A DNA stretch of 64,000 nt from Sporomusaceae bacterium (lineage in GTDB: Bacteria; Bacillota; Negativicutes; UBA1444), in NCBI GenBank assembly GCA_018434355.1, contig JAHDPL010000011.1, positions 62,001-126,000 of the forward strand, in the 5' to 3' direction. How positions within the stretch are numbered: the first letter of the stretch is position 1; the number at the start of each line of letters is the position of its first letter. The translations under genes and the position numbers were made by a program. A model generated the notes under the pieces. The model had not been told where the DNA came from, searched no databases, and worked only from the letters and a program-made list of their open reading frames with translations. This document shows positions 35,123 to 40,480 of the stretch, piece after piece.

Positions 35123-36676
35123 TTGCGAACAAAACATAAACTTTTCGGGCTGCTGCTGACGCTGCTGATCTGTCTGGCACCTTGGAGCGGCGTGGCGCTG
35201 GCGGAGAAAGCGCCGGAGATCGTTGCGATCGACATTTTGACCACCAATGATTTTCATGGCGCGCTGGTCGAAGCGGGAAAAAACCCGGGTGCAGCCAAAT
35301 TCGCCGCTTTTTTGCTGCAACAGCGGGCCAAGAATCCTTATGGCTCGATTTTTGTCAGTGCCGGCGACATGTTCCAGGGCAGTCCGGACTCCAATCTGCT
35401 GTATGGAAAAACGGTCGTGGAAGTCTTGAATGCCCTGCGCATGGACGCGATGACGCTGGGCAACCATGAATTTGATTGGGGACTCGACAAGTTGGCGGCC
35501 CGGGTGACGGAGTCGCGCTTCCCGTATGTGTCGGCCAATGTGCGCGAAAGGGACGGGCAGGGAAGGCTCAGCTTCGTCAAGCCGTTTGTGATGCTGGAGC
35601 GGATGGGTGTGAAAATCGCCGTCATCGGCATCGTGACGCCGGAAACCGCCTATACGACCGGGCCGAAAATCGTCGCGCCGTTCGAATTCCGCGACCCGGC
35701 CACGGTAGTTCGCGAACTGTTGCCGCAGGTCCGGCGACTGGGGGCGGATATCGTGGTGGTGTTGTCGCATCTGGCGTCAGAACAGGACGCGACCGGGCAG
35801 GTGACCGGGGACGCAGCGGTGCTGGCGGCGACGGTGCCGGGGATTGATGCGGTGGTGAGCGGGCATTCGCACAAGCTGGTTGCCGGCAAAGTGAACGGCG
35901 TGCCGGTGGTGCAGGCCTACTATTTCGGACGGGCGCTCGGCAAAATCAGCCTGGTCTACTCTAAGCGCGAGCAAAAGGTGCTGCTCAGCTCGGTCCAGTC
36001 GCTTGAGGTGCCGATCAAAGCGGTGAGGGCTGACGCTGAAGTGCAGGCGATCGTTGACCGGTCGCAAGCGGCGATCATTCCGGTGAAAAACGTGGTGCTG
36101 GGACGGACGGTAAAAGACCTTTCGCATGACCGCAATGAATTGTCGATCCTCGGCCAGTGGTCGAGCGATATGCTGCGTCAGGCTACCAAGGCCGATATCG
36201 CGCTGCAAAACGGCGGCGGCCTGCGGACAAGCATTCCGGCCGGCGCGGTCACGATGGGCAATCTGTATGAAGTGATGCCCTTCGACAATACCCTGGTGAC
36301 GATGGACCTGACCGGCGAGCAGGTGCTGCAGGCGCTGAACCACGGCATCAACGGCAAAGCGGGCATGGTACAGTTTTCCGGCTTGCAGCTGACGATCGAT
36401 TCGAGCCGGCCTTATGGCAATCAACTGCTGGAGGTCCGTTTGTCCGACGGACGCCTGCTTGACCCATCGGCGACCTACAAGATCGTGACCAACGACTTCA
36501 TGGCTTCCGGCGGCGACGAGTTCACGATGTTGAAACAAGGCCGGAACATCACGGATACCTTTATCCCGCTGCGCGATGCGCTGGCCGAGGCGGTTAAAAA
36601 AGCCGGCGTGCTCAATCTGCAACTGGATGGGCGGCTGAAGGACCTCGGCAAAGCGGCGCTGAAGCCGGCGGCCTAA
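35123..36676 (+). CDS. exported UshA-like 5'-nucleotidase/2',3'-cyclic phosphodiesterase
   Basis: A 517-residue exported metallophosphatase. The TTG start at 35123, 6 bases after GGGGAGGG, gives a clean signal peptide (cleavage near VALA-EKA, residue 27). Metal-binding motifs are TTNDFHG (40-46), AGDMFQGSP (80-88), GNHEFDWG (113-120) and GHSHKLV. The C-terminal nucleotidase domain shows NGGGLRTSIPAG and MASGGDEFTML. It should release nucleosides and phosphate outside the cell, feeding the nucleoside transporter found elsewhere in the window (inference). Downstream genes follow closely. Confidence 0.9.
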   Translation: MRTKHKLFGLLLTLLICLAPWSGVALAEKAPEIVAIDILTTNDFHGALVEAGKNPGAAKFAAFLLQQRAKNPYGSIFVSAGDMFQGSPDSNLLYGKTVVEVLNALRMDAMTLGNHEFDWGLDKLAARVTESRFPYVSANVRERDGQGRLSFVKPFVMLERMGVKIAVIGIVTPETAYTTGPKIVAPFEFRDPATVVRELLPQVRRLGADIVVVLSHLASEQDATGQVTGDAAVLAATVPGIDAVVSGHSHKLVAGKVNGVPVVQAYYFGRALGKISLVYSKREQKVLLSSVQSLEVPIKAVRADAEVQAIVDRSQAAIIPVKNVVLGRTVKDLSHDRNELSILGQWSSDMLRQATKADIALQNGGGLRTSIPAGAVTMGNLYEVMPFDNTLVTMDLTGEQVLQALNHGINGKAGMVQFSGLQLTIDSSRPYGNQLLEVRLSDGRLLDPSATYKIVTNDFMASGGDEFTMLKQGRNITDTFIPLRDALAEAVKKAGVLNLQLDGRLKDLGKAALKPAA

Positions 36677-36693
36677 ACAAGGGAGGGAGTGCG

Positions 36694-37146
36694 GTGCCCC
36701 GATTCGAGTATCGTTTGAGCGATGCTGGCCAGGACTATCCAGTGCTCTATTTCTACGAGGCGATGGATGAAGTGGAAGCGGCGATGCGGTTTGCCTGCGA
36801 CTATTTTGTCAAGGAAGGCAAGACCTGGCTGAAAACCGCGTCTGCGATCGATGCGGCCGCTTACGTGATGTATGTGGAAGAGGTGCCGACCGACTCGGCG
36901 GAGGCCGGCAACCAGACCCAACCGGTGATGCCTGGCTGGATCGCAGTGGAAGTGCGCGAATACCGGGAGTATGTCAATGAATACCCGCTGATCCACCAGT
37001 TCGGCTTTCCCAGCCAAGTGCAGGCGCTTTGCCATCTGATGGCAGACACGATGATCCTGTTTGGCCAGGAGTGGGAAAAGACTTCCTGCGAAATTGATGA
37101 GGACCGGCAGGCGTATATCTACTATTGCCGGAAAACCGGGGGGTGA
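36694..37146 (+). CDS. hypothetical protein
   Basis: I do not recognise this 150-residue acidic soluble protein. It has no signal peptide and is rich in aromatic residues (VLYFYEAMDE, REYREYVNEYP). The start is GTG after GGGAGGGAG, 17 bases behind the UshA-like gene, and the stop is 5 bases before the next start. Position puts it in the glutathionylspermidine-synthase-like cluster, but nothing shows its role. Confidence 0.6.
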   Translation: MPRFEYRLSDAGQDYPVLYFYEAMDEVEAAMRFACDYFVKEGKTWLKTASAIDAAAYVMYVEEVPTDSAEAGNQTQPVMPGWIAVEVREYREYVNEYPLIHQFGFPSQVQALCHLMADTMILFGQEWEKTSCEIDEDRQAYIYYCRKTGG

Positions 37147-37151
37147 CGTCG

Positions 37152-37505
37152 ATGGATCCCGGCAACAAGGGTCGCAGTAAAAAGGTCGTGGGTCTGTTTT
37201 TGGCGGCGGCGCTCACCATGACGCCGGGCTGTTCGCTGAACCCGTTTGACTGGGGCCGTAACGAAGCTCCCTGCACCGATGTGAACCGTGACGGATACTG
37301 TGATGAAGATGGACGTCCGGTATCGTCGGTTACCAACCGCAGCCACCGGACCGGGTTCTGGCCGGTTTACCGCTCTTATGGCGGTGGCAGTTCCAGCACC
37401 GTTTCCAAACCTTCTTCCTCTTCTTCCTCCCGCGGTGTGTCCAGCGGTTCGAAGGGCGGGCTGGGCAGTTCATCGCGTTCCGGCGGAGGATCGAGCGGTG
37501 GCTGA
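37152..37505 (+). CDS. small exported Ser/Gly-rich protein with calcium-loop-like motif
   Basis: A 117-residue protein with an N-terminal hydrophobic segment (VVGLFLAAALTM) ending in TPGC, a weak lipobox. A short DVNRDGYCDEDG segment looks like an EF-hand or dockerin-type calcium loop. The last 45 residues are almost only serine and glycine with a few basic residues. The ATG follows GGGGGTG. It overlaps the start of the ATP-grasp gene. E. coli has a small DUF1190 protein next to each of its comparable ATP-grasp genes (ygiB-ygiC, yjfM-yjfC), so this may be a functional equivalent, although I see no sequence match. Confidence 0.6.
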   Translation: MDPGNKGRSKKVVGLFLAAALTMTPGCSLNPFDWGRNEAPCTDVNRDGYCDEDGRPVSSVTNRSHRTGFWPVYRSYGGGSSSTVSKPSSSSSSRGVSSGSKGGLGSSSRSGGGSSGG

Positions 37506-38772
37506 CGATCTGGCTGCCAGGGATTATGCAAAAAAACGTGAGGCCCTCTACGGGCCGCTACGGCGAGATGGCCGCTTTGTCTGGGATTCGATGTACGGCG
37601 ACGAATATGCGCTGGCTTCGTTGCAACCGGTAACGGCGGAGTTTTGCCGGAGTCTGCGCAACGCGGCGGAAAAACTGGGCAGCATCTATGCCCGCACGGC
37701 CGAAGTGTTGCAGCATTCTGACGAAGAGCTGTTGGCCGAACTGGGGTTGCCGCAGGCGACCTGGGCGGCGGTGCGCAGTTCGCTGCCGAGCTTGTTGCCG
37801 ACGATTCTCGGCCGGTTTGATTTTGCTGCGACGGAGCAAGGGGTCAAGATGCTGGAGTTCAACGCGGAAACGCCGACCGATGTGGTGGAAGCGTTTTATG
37901 TCAATGGCAAGGTCTGTGAGTTTTTTGGCGCCGCCGATCCCAACCAGGGACTGGCAGACGATCTAACCAGAGCGTTTGAACGCAGTGTCGCAGCCTACCG
38001 CAATAACGGCTTTGCGGTGGAGCGGGCCGTGTTCAGCTCGGTCGACTGGCATGACGAAGATGCGGGGACGACGCGCTTCTTGCTGCAGCAGTCGCGCCTG
38101 GCGGCGAAGTTTGTGCCGCTGTCGCAGCTGCGGGTGTTCGAGGATCGGTTGCAGGTCTGGGACGGCCAGGCGCACGAGCCGGTGGACCTGCTGTACCGGC
38201 TGCATCCGCTGGAAAAAATGGCGGAGGAGCAGGACGGCGACGGCTACCCTACCGGCCGGCATGTACTGGAGATCGCGGCGGAAGGCAGACTGGCCCTCGT
38301 GAATCCGCCGGCGGCGATGCTCGCCCAGTCCAAGGCGACCCAGGCGCTCATCTGGAGTCTGCATGAGGACGGCTCGTTTTTTACGCCGGAGGAACACGCG
38401 ACGATTGCCGACCATATGCTGCCGACCTACTTTGAAAACCGGTTTCTTGGCCGTAGCCCCTACGTGACCAAGCCTATTTACGGAAGGGAAGGCGGTGCGG
38501 TGACGATCTATGGCAGCGACGGAGTGGCCTGGACGCGGGATGAGGAATGCAACTACTGGGAGCAGCCGCTTGTTTACCAACAGTATGTCGAACTGCCGAA
38601 GCAGACGGTCAGGACCCTGAACGGCCTGTATTGTGGTAGAATAATCTATGGAACCTTCCTGGTGGATGGTCGCGGCTCGGCCCTGGTGGCGCGGGTCGGC
38701 AGCCGGATCACCGGCAATATGGCATATTATCAACCGTTGTGCTTATCAACGGACGCGTCGAAAGGAGAATGA
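37498..38772 (+). CDS. glutathionylspermidine-synthase-like ATP-grasp enzyme
   Basis: A 424-residue ATP-grasp ligase matching the synthetase domain of glutathionylspermidine synthase and the single-domain E. coli YgiC/YjfC. Diagnostic stretches are MLEFNAETPTDVVEA (118-132), SKATQALIWSLHEDG, and YVTKPIYGREGGAV, the ATP and peptide sites. The amidase half is absent, so only ligation is expected, and the true substrates of this short form are not established. GTG 37498 follows GGCGGAGGA and overlaps the previous gene by 8 bases; longer in-frame sequence upstream belongs to that gene's other frame. DUF350 follows, as in the E. coli yjf operon. Confidence 0.88.
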   Translation: MADDLAARDYAKKREALYGPLRRDGRFVWDSMYGDEYALASLQPVTAEFCRSLRNAAEKLGSIYARTAEVLQHSDEELLAELGLPQATWAAVRSSLPSLLPTILGRFDFAATEQGVKMLEFNAETPTDVVEAFYVNGKVCEFFGAADPNQGLADDLTRAFERSVAAYRNNGFAVERAVFSSVDWHDEDAGTTRFLLQQSRLAAKFVPLSQLRVFEDRLQVWDGQAHEPVDLLYRLHPLEKMAEEQDGDGYPTGRHVLEIAAEGRLALVNPPAAMLAQSKATQALIWSLHEDGSFFTPEEHATIADHMLPTYFENRFLGRSPYVTKPIYGREGGAVTIYGSDGVAWTRDEECNYWEQPLVYQQYVELPKQTVRTLNGLYCGRIIYGTFLVDGRGSALVARVGSRITGNMAYYQPLCLSTDASKGE

Positions 38773-38775
38773 GTG

Positions 38776-39213
38776 ATGGTTTTGCAACAATGGTCCAGCT
38801 TCGTCAATTTCCTTACCTATCTGGTGGTCTCGATCCCGCTGCTGCTCATCGGCATCAAGATTTTCATGATGCAGACGCCGTACAACGAAATGAAGATAAT
38901 CCAAGAGGCGGCCTGCTGCGACAAGACGGCAAAAGATGAGGCCGGCATCGCCGTCGCGCACAATTTGGGCGGAAAAATCGTCGGCCAGGCGCTGGTGATG
39001 GCCTCGGCGGTGTTCCACGCGGTCAGTATCGGCGACCTGATCATCTGGGGCGTCATCGGCATTATTTTTCAGGTATTGGTCTACTATGCGTTTGAAAAGT
39101 TGACCCCGTTCAAGGTGGCGGACGAGCTGATGAAAGGCAATATCGCCGTCGGCGTGTTTTCGGCCCGGCTCAGCTTTGCGACCGGCCTGATTTTGGCTGC
39201 GCTGATCAGCTGA
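38776..39213 (+). CDS. DUF350 membrane protein
   Basis: A 145-residue protein with four hydrophobic segments of the DUF350 (YjfL) family, recognised from the QTPYNEMKIIQE and EAGIAVAHNLGGKIVGQAL stretches and the matching halves. ATG 38776 is 4 bases after the ATP-grasp stop and follows AAAGGAGAA. The family is regularly linked with glutathionylspermidine-synthase-like enzymes. Its own role is unknown; a channel-like or membrane-sensing function is only a guess. Confidence 0.85.
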   Translation: MVLQQWSSFVNFLTYLVVSIPLLLIGIKIFMMQTPYNEMKIIQEAACCDKTAKDEAGIAVAHNLGGKIVGQALVMASAVFHAVSIGDLIIWGVIGIIFQVLVYYAFEKLTPFKVADELMKGNIAVGVFSARLSFATGLILAALIS

Positions 39214-39299
39214 AAAGTTTGCGCGAGGGTTTGACAGGAACAAAATAGTTTAGTATGATAAAAAACGCAGGTGAAAAGTCACTTGGCTTACTGATTCGT

Positions 39300-39385: not shown

Positions 39386-39420
39386 AAGGGTTCCGACGAT
39401 TTCGTCGGAACCCTTTTTTT
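39386..39420 (+). terminator. intrinsic terminator of tRNA-Ala
   Basis: AAGGGTTCCGACGA pairs with TCGTCGGAACCCTT across a TT loop, giving a 14-base-pair stem followed by a run of seven T. The intron remnant begins 7 bases after the stem. Confidence 0.93.
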
Positions 39421-39422
39421 GC

Positions 39423-39630
39423 GTGCGCCCAGCATGGGCAGTAACTGGGCGGTGAAAGTCCGCTATGGGCTTGGTAGTGGGAACCATTAGCCAAGGGATG
39501 AAGTGGTTCTGCCAAACCGTGAAAAGATACTACAGCTAGCCGATCAATATGGAGCTAGGCAACCGGAGTCTTACCGCCATTGCAGACCGCGACCGGAGAA
39601 GCGTAAAATAGCGAAGCCGCATAAATGCAG
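39423..39630 (+). mobile_element. group II intron remnant (5' part only)
   Basis: The stretch opens with GTGCGCCCAGCATGGG and continues with GGCGGTGAAAGTCCGC, TATGGGC, GGTAGTGGGAACC and TAGCCAAGG, the ordered conserved blocks of bacterial group II intron domain I. There is no reverse-transcriptase gene and I find no domain V, so only about 200 bases remain. The 5' end lies just behind the T-run of the tRNA-Ala terminator, a position favoured by class C introns. The 3' limit is approximate; another terminator follows. Confidence 0.65.
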
Positions 39631-39694: not shown

Positions 39695-39970
39695 TTAATT
39701 TCGTTTCAAAGTAATGTTATGCTCGCCAACATTTCGCAAATAGATCGTGTCTGGTTTAACGTACTGAAATGTTACGCGAATGCCCATAGTAATCGACGCT
39801 TCAAATATTTCATCCGTGCCTTGGATTTTTTTTGTTCGCAAGGATGGGTGCTGCGGATTAGATTCGATAAGTAATAAAAATTTCTCTAATTGCGTTGCGG
39901 TTAGAATCCCTTTTTTTAGCAGCTTTTTTAATTCTTTGACAAAGCGGTCGCTGCGATATAGGTTAGGCAT
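39695..39970 (-). CDS. RelE/ParE-type toxin (YafQ-like)
   Basis: A 91-residue basic protein with the RelE-fold layout: N-terminal helices (RSDRFVKELKKLLKKG), then strands IFEASITMGIRVTFQYV and a C-terminal IYLRNVGEHNITLKRN. The pattern resembles mRNA interferases of the YafQ/RelE group that cut messages at the ribosome. The ATG at 39970 lies 8 bases inside the antitoxin gene, the usual coupled arrangement; a longer frame from 40030 would lie within the antitoxin. Catalytic residues are not certain. Confidence 0.75.
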   Translation of the reverse strand: MPNLYRSDRFVKELKKLLKKGILTATQLEKFLLLIESNPQHPSLRTKKIQGTDEIFEASITMGIRVTFQYVKPDTIYLRNVGEHNITLKRN

Positions 39971-40244
39971 TGGTAATGTCCGCCAGAAGCTCTTTGGCGG
40001 TAACCGCCTTGCCGGGCCCCTTTTGGTCAAGTTCTTTCTGAACTTCCTTTTCCCCTTGCTGCCAGGCTTTGGACCAGAACCAAGTTTGTTCTTTTGGAAT
40101 CAGCGCTTTTGGGGTAATGATGATTTTCCCGTCTTCGATGTTGTACTCCAACAAATCCCCTTCGCGAATTTGTAGTTTAGTCGCCAATGCTTTCGGCAAC
40201 GTGACCTGATTTCTGGTTCGCACTTCGATATATCCAACTGACAC
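39963..40244 (-). CDS. AbrB-type antitoxin
   Basis: A 93-residue protein with a SpoVT/AbrB DNA-binding domain at the N-terminus (YIEVRTRNQVTLPKALATKL, then IREGDLLEYNIEDGKIIITP). The C-terminal half is helical and likely wraps the toxin. GTG 40244 is preferred to GTG 40253 because GAGGTG then sits 5 bases before it. It should repress its own operon and neutralise the downstream toxin. Confidence 0.8.
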   Translation of the reverse strand: MSVGYIEVRTRNQVTLPKALATKLQIREGDLLEYNIEDGKIIITPKALIPKEQTWFWSKAWQQGEKEVQKELDQKGPGKAVTAKELLADITNA

Positions 40245-40480
40245 TCCAATCACCTCATTTTAACAAAATGCGAATTTCTGATTTTCTTATATTCTACCAT
40301 TTCTTATTTTTGGGGTCAACCGCCGAACAAGCGGGCGAAAAAGTTGTTTATCGGCCTACTCGAACTAGAAGTCGGGATTGGTCCTGAGATAAACAGTAAA
40401 AATCCTATTGCCAGATATTGACTTGCGTTCATACCCCACGATAGATATAATTTGATCAACTTGTGGGGTATGAAGAGGTG
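40245..40480. other. gap between toxin-antitoxin and Fic-linked genes
   Basis: A/T-rich at its left end, with the antitoxin promoter presumably near 40260-40310. A stretch at about 40316-40400 reads in the leftward frame as a serine-rich tail but has no start or support, so I make no gene call. The right end holds the promoter and inverted repeat listed next. Confidence 0.4.
40418..40471 (+). promoter_or_regulatory. promoter with 9-bp inverted repeat
   Basis: ATACCCCAC (40431-40439) is repeated in inverted form as GTGGGGTAT (40463-40471), flanking a TATAAT at 40446-40451. Candidate -35 elements are TTGCGT (16-base spacing) or TTGACT with TAGATA at 40442-40447 (18-base spacing). The left arm falls in the spacer and the right arm near the transcript start, as expected of an operator. 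Confidence 0.5.

Follow-up and report, generated by a model that had tools for sequence, protein, structure and literature searches.

A conserved bacterial gene cassette linking a predicted YgiC/YjfC-type ligase to an exported protein with a C-terminal motif shared across phyla and phages

A 64,000-nucleotide stretch of DNA from a Sporomusaceae bacterium (assembly GCA_018434355.1, contig JAHDPL010000011.1, positions 62,001 to 126,000; hereafter the window) carries a conserved cassette of four genes, which encode an acidic protein of 150 amino acids (ORF150, for open reading frame), a small exported protein with a Ser/Gly-rich end (the tail protein), an ATP-grasp ligase and a DUF350 membrane protein. 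The linkage of these genes is conserved, the ligase has kept the fold and the ATP-grasp residues of its family, and the tail protein bears a motif, fixed in its position near the C-terminus, that recurs beside related ligases across phyla and in phages. On balance we lean towards the view that the cassette modifies the C-terminus of an envelope protein, the ligase joining a polyamine-type amine to the tail before export.

The ligase and the C-terminal motif of its partner

The ligase (424 amino acids, GTG start, 37498..38772, + strand) is the sole match to the GSP_synth family PF03738 in this 3.9 Mb Negativicutes genome, spanning profile positions 10-369 of 371 with 191 bits (E 4.8e-56) against a curated cut-off of 29.3. 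A Pfam scan of the protein gives PF03738 only, and thus a single domain with no amidase domain. In a sequence comparison with the Protein Data Bank (PDB) the nearest structures are YjfC (5e-17) and YgiC (7e-13), with trypanothione synthetase and GspSA ranking behind them, and the AlphaFold (AF2) model of the ligase is best matched by YjfC 7uk6 (E 3.6e-26, template modelling (TM) scores 0.74/0.81). The suggestion in a preliminary description of this DNA that the run does not serve true, GspSA-type glutathionylspermidine synthesis agrees with both the missing amidase domain and these closest structures. In an alignment of 17 Bacillota and E. coli sequences, residues R106, D108, E120, N122, K279, K325 and E331 are conserved at a level of 90 % or more; the first four form an R-x-D ... 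E-x-N quartet which, judged by spacing, probably corresponds to the one required for activity of the structural relative Cp1B (PMC12568646). YgiC and YjfC are described as peptide-spermidine ligases in vitro (Pederick 2023, as cited in PMC12568646) and are annotated in RefSeq as peptide--spermidine ligase, so that the earlier remark that the function of the E. coli parallels is not established is outdated. By analogy, the window ligase is predicted to be of the YgiC/YjfC type and to have peptide-spermidine ligase activity. A second, distant group of PF03738 ligases occurs in the class (L036-L041, L018-L020), with a membrane-anchored partner encoded directly upstream and without ORF150; these partners mostly end KSGFGSAGxRSSS.

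The tail protein (117 amino acids, pI 9.7, 37152..37505, + strand) is encoded immediately before the ligase and has no Pfam match, PF06693 (DUF1190) included. Its hydrophobic N-terminus ends ...LTMTPGC, where the Cys could be lipidated, the lipobox being non-canonical, and its C-terminus is a basic, Ser/Gly-rich tail (...VSSGSKGGLGSSSRSGGGSSGG) with the motif KGGLG (37452..37466, + strand) placed 12 residues ahead of the end. Among orthologues the middle of the protein aligns poorly and the end is kept. An EF-hand-like loop, DVNRDGYCDEDG, lies in the body of the protein (window 37266-37304), and the pattern D-x-(D/N/S/T)-x-DG-x-C-(D/E) is found in 59 of 105 partner proteins, which suggests metal binding outside the cell.

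Tails encoded upstream of ligases were scored for the motif class [KRH][GSA]1-2 G[FILVY]G within their last 40 residues. The resulting consensus, basic-(G/S)-G-(I/L/F/Y)-G, mostly lies 7-12 residues short of the C-terminus and is present in 96 of 103 distinct tails; after shuffling of each tail, the average count is 3.8 and the highest 11. Exactly 7-9 residues follow the motif in 87 of the 96 tails that bear it. Among 1376 other open reading frames of the same loci the motif appears in three, none of which has a Gly/Ser-rich tail. As the 103 tails are not mutually independent, the proteins were clustered by their mature bodies only, with signal and tail removed, since signal peptides otherwise lump nearly everything together; a slightly wider form of the motif is found in at least one member of 40 of the 42 body clusters. 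An invariant C-terminal Gly was considered as a further feature of the tail and rejected, the last residue being S in 50 tails, G in 49 and E in 4. The window protein, exported or anchored, adjoining the ligase and bearing the motif near its C-terminus, fits the partner group proposed here.

The same tail is found well beyond Bacillota. The E. coli proteins YgiB (RGGFG...SRSMGG) and YjfM (RGGYGRSSSARGHWGG) both fit the motif, as do DUF1190 proteins of Rhizobium, Vibrio, Asticcacaulis and Loktanella, an Arthrobacter protein without a Pfam family (RGGFGGGAKGGGGHGG) and, loosely, a Leptolyngbya protein (RVSGMGSSRSGGASS). PF06693 matches YgiB, YjfM and ORF0185 of phage phiAS4; the Pfam DUF1190 model reaches into the tail, so that the motif is partly implicit there, while proteins with non-DUF1190 bodies fall outside its cover. 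The motif also fits proteins of Aeromonas, Achromobacter, Sinorhizobium and Bacillus phages. Ligase matches in the phage collection amount to 138 records, and 25 of 33 viral contigs retrieved by the ligase alone encode a separate small exported tail-bearing protein within 3 kb, a count from which matches inside the ligase itself (L187, L189, L198, L203, L204) were discarded. A viral scan with the ligase of Bacillus phage FADO as query found nothing. Large phages often pair the ligase with a small lipoprotein that has an RGGFG-type tail (phiAS4, L169 1826-4179; FADO, L170 2581-4248; L185-L210), and some Aeromonas phages have a K+ channel gene annotated where the lipoprotein matches. It is possible that the phage ligase and lipoprotein change the host envelope during infection.

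Conservation of the cassette, ORF150 and the genomic surroundings

Conservation of the gene order was surveyed in a class sample of 80 genomes and a phylum sample of 398. PF03738 ligases occur in 21 of the 80 class genomes, and in 15 of these, namely the window's own genome and 14 further ones, the genes run ORF150, tail protein, ligase, DUF350, an arrangement kept far beyond chance. An independent profile search found ORF150 in exactly these 15 cassette genomes and in none of the 65 others; in the phylum sample it occurs in four other genomes, and the ligase adjoins it in all four. The tail protein holds the orthologous position in all relatives, and DUF350 is present in 18 of the 21 class genomes with a ligase and in one ligase-free genome. 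When named genomes were scanned by ligase alone, 80 Bacillota loci were obtained, chiefly from Paenibacillus, Brevibacillus, Thermoactinomycetaceae, Desulfosporosinus and Sporomusa; ORF150 is present in 79, and in 75 DUF350 also lies no more than 4 kb away, though some contigs are truncated. A Rossellomorea plasmid carries ORF150 in divergent orientation next to the other three genes, and at one Bacillota locus (L083 4680-7251) the same four genes are rearranged as tail protein, DUF350, ORF150, ligase. The expectation that both orphan genes of the window would be conserved with the ligase is thus confirmed at the level of the class, the phylum and the named loci. Accessory genes (DUF350, ORF150, PspA/YjfI, YjfK and ion channels) vary between loci, and E. 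coli ygiBC and Bacillus phage FADO have the ligase and tail protein without any of them; because such pairs exist, the ligase and tail protein can be taken as the minimal constant core.

In the window the cassette is part of a run of five closely packed + strand genes (35123-39213), as the preliminary description had reported and as coordinates and Pfam matches bear out; successive genes are separated by 17 bp and 5 bp, then overlap by 8 bp and finally abut (0 bp). The first gene (35123..36676, TTG start) encodes a UshA-like exported 5'-nucleotidase with matches to 5_nucleotid_C (PF02872, 1.2e-39) and Metallophos (PF00149, 1e-10). It had been counted as a member of the unit, a view that was rejected here, since the nucleotidase adjoins the cassette elsewhere only in a genome of the same genus (L022). 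Four of the five genes therefore constitute the conserved cassette, the last of them encoding the YjfL-like DUF350 protein (38773..39213; PF03994, 99.4 bits against a curated cut-off of 26).

ORF150 (36694..37146, + strand) is an acidic cytosolic protein and a dedicated partner of this ligase clade. Its pI is 4.4 in the window and 4.4-4.9 across all members, and none of the members matches any family in a Pfam scan. The family was aligned over 14 members. Its two halves are homologous (hhalign of half against half, probability 96.7 %, E 3.8e-10), and the AF2 model (predicted local distance difference test (pLDDT) 90) consists of two beta-beta-alpha-beta-beta-beta units, each of about 65 amino acids. 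ORF150 is thus a tandem duplication of this unit. Searches of the PDB by sequence and by fold gave no confident relative; the top match, the ubiquitin-like domain pair of USP7 (E 4.8e-3, TM 0.24), was not accepted. Kinship with YjfI (DUF2170, CesT/Tir-like) or YjfK was likewise rejected, given profile comparison probabilities of 0.2 and 0.4 % and a different predicted topology, which leaves only acidity and size as an analogy.

A promoter-like site (39231-39259) and then a tRNA-Ala gene lie on the 3' side of the run. Past the tRNA terminator, window 39420-39600 looks by eye like the start of a group II intron RNA, for which Rfam gives no above-threshold match. On the - strand, window 39695-40253 carries a MazE-type antitoxin gene (PF04014), immediately followed by a small reading frame for a RelE-like toxin.

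Modification of the tail and competing explanations

In the reaction that we favour, the tail protein would be synthesised with a signal for export or anchoring at its N-terminus and a basic tail rich in Gly and Ser, and the cytosolic ligase would recognise (K/R/H)(G/S)G(I/L/F/Y)G near its C-terminus prior to export. The ligase would then use ATP to phosphorylate a carboxylate of the tail, most likely the C-terminal one, and the activated carboxylate would be joined to an amine, for which spermidine or a related polyamine is the likeliest candidate. As a guess, the acidic, two-repeat ORF150 might hold the basic tail protein for the ligase, and, equally as a guess, DUF350 might act at the membrane on the product. 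In glutathionylspermidine and glutathione synthetases a peptide C-terminus is activated as an acyl phosphate and attacked by an amine (PMC10979984). Taken together with the reports of peptide-spermidine ligase activity and with the shared tail, this chemistry is most simply read as making the tail the natural peptide substrate; the roles of the tail, the polyamine, ORF150 and DUF350 are inferred. The idea that the tail of the small protein is the acceptor had been raised in the preliminary description, and the shared C-terminal motif strengthens it.

Genes for S-adenosylmethionine (AdoMet) decarboxylase and spermidine synthase are encoded in the genome, so that the organism can be expected to make spermidine. 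Co-occurrence of polyamine genes with the ligase was set aside as uninformative, AdoMet decarboxylase being present in 79 of the 80 class genomes with or without a ligase. This genome has two AdoMet decarboxylase genes (G000:C22:27177-27497 and G000:C41:22828-23244, in open frames of 164 and 302 amino acids), a state common to most of the class, and one of the two may serve something besides spermidine.

Several points weigh against tail modification. It has not been seen for any family member; the variable terminal residue (S, G or E) is loose for an enzyme acting on a C-terminal carboxylate; and the motif could be a docking site or could serve something besides the ligase. The polyamine genes are unlinked to the cassette in this genome, and their near-universal presence in the class removes any support for spermidine from co-occurrence. 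Moreover, no tail protein was seen beside the distant ligase copies L064, L067 and L071-L073 and one Azospirillum copy.

An explanation that we regard as unlikely, yet the best surviving of the alternatives, is that the ligase makes a soluble, glutathionylspermidine-like peptide-amine metabolite which the tail protein and DUF350 sense or export, the tail not being a substrate. The origin of PF03738 in glutathionylspermidine synthetase and the structural match to GspSA 2io8 speak for it, as does the fungal structural relative Cp1B, which makes small pseudodipeptides (PMC12568646). However, YgiC is reported to be without glutathionylspermidine synthase activity (Sui 2012, as cited in PMC12506659), the window ligase has no amidase domain, and a soluble product leaves the position-specific C-terminal motif in unrelated ligase neighbours unexplained. 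Somewhat less probable again is a structural module of the envelope-stress response, in which the tail docks the ligase to the membrane with DUF350, as in operons linked to the phage-shock protein (PSP), and any catalysis on the tail is incidental. PspA and CesT/Tir-like proteins do accompany related operons (PMC11237479; Rhizobium L173, Vibrio L174), and BacA/YjfI resembles type III secretion chaperones (PMC10948618), but the window genome is without PspA, the ATP-grasp residues of the ligase are conserved, and lipoprotein tails finish outside the cytosol while the ligase has no export signal. A process akin to ribosomally synthesised and post-translationally modified peptides, in which the tail, once modified, is cleaved away to yield a free small peptide, as with graspetides or the scaffold peptides of peptide aminoacyl-tRNA ligases (PEARLs), would fit a small partner gene that immediately precedes the one for an ATP-grasp enzyme and recalls the likeness of PEARLs to glutathionylspermidine synthase and their action on the C-termini of scaffolds (PMC10979984), but is improbable for a cassette with no peptidase, a lipoprotein or membrane-anchored partner and a genomic setting unlike natural-product clusters.

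Should tail modification be correct, Bacillota would have in ORF150 a new accessory family linked to the ligase. The shared tail also predicts a natural substrate for YgiC and YjfC, the C-terminus of the neighbouring exported protein, where the accessible literature names none. In a broader and more tentative proposal, bacteria and phages would share a form of C-terminal tagging in which a dedicated ATP-grasp ligase caps many unrelated exported proteins with a polyamine via the tail motif and ORF150, as a new tandem-repeat protein, is the adaptor of Bacillota. Envelope proteins would then gain positive charge, and polyamines would be attached to them by an enzyme family spread over bacteria and large phages.

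Comparison with known systems

The set of ligase, DUF350 and exported protein has already been published, as has the enzymatic activity of the E. coli relatives. The operon class of DUF350, ATP-grasp ligase and DUF1190 was described by Ravi et al. 2024 (PMC11237479), where the PSP-associated polyamine operons combine an ATP-grasp ligase, DUF350, DUF1190, CesT/Tir-PspA, DUF2491 and a K+ channel. The ligase, DUF350 and an exported protein are common to these operons and the window cassette, whereas the latter is without a PspA or CesT/Tir element and, unlike PspA envelope-stress operons, lies in a genome with no match to PspA/IM30 (PF04012). The passages of PMC11237479 that were examined mention neither ORF150 nor the common tail motif, and neither the ORF150 family nor the cross-family motif was found in the accessible literature, a scope that excludes Iyer 2009, Sui 2012 and Pederick 2023.

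GspSA (gss) shares with the window ligase the fold of its synthetase domain (2io8, E 1.2e-22) and the conserved ATP-grasp residues, but the window ligase has no amidase domain, is 20% identical and stands closer to YjfC. PEARLs can be likened to it by mode of action only: an ATP-grasp-related enzyme activates the C-terminus of a scaffold and adds an amine, but these enzymes belong to a different family and use aminoacyl-tRNA, and their partner is not exported. The closest parallels are ygiBC and yjfIJKLMC of E. coli, in which the ligase has the same fold and family as that of the window and, in yjf, DUF350 is represented by YjfL. The body of the window partner is unrelated to theirs and has no DUF1190 match, and ORF150 stands in place of YjfI, YjfJ and YjfK, with no detectable homology to YjfI or YjfK. 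In both E. coli operons, nevertheless, an exported partner (YgiB or YjfM, DUF1190) is encoded directly upstream of the ligase and carries a tail that matches that of the window protein.

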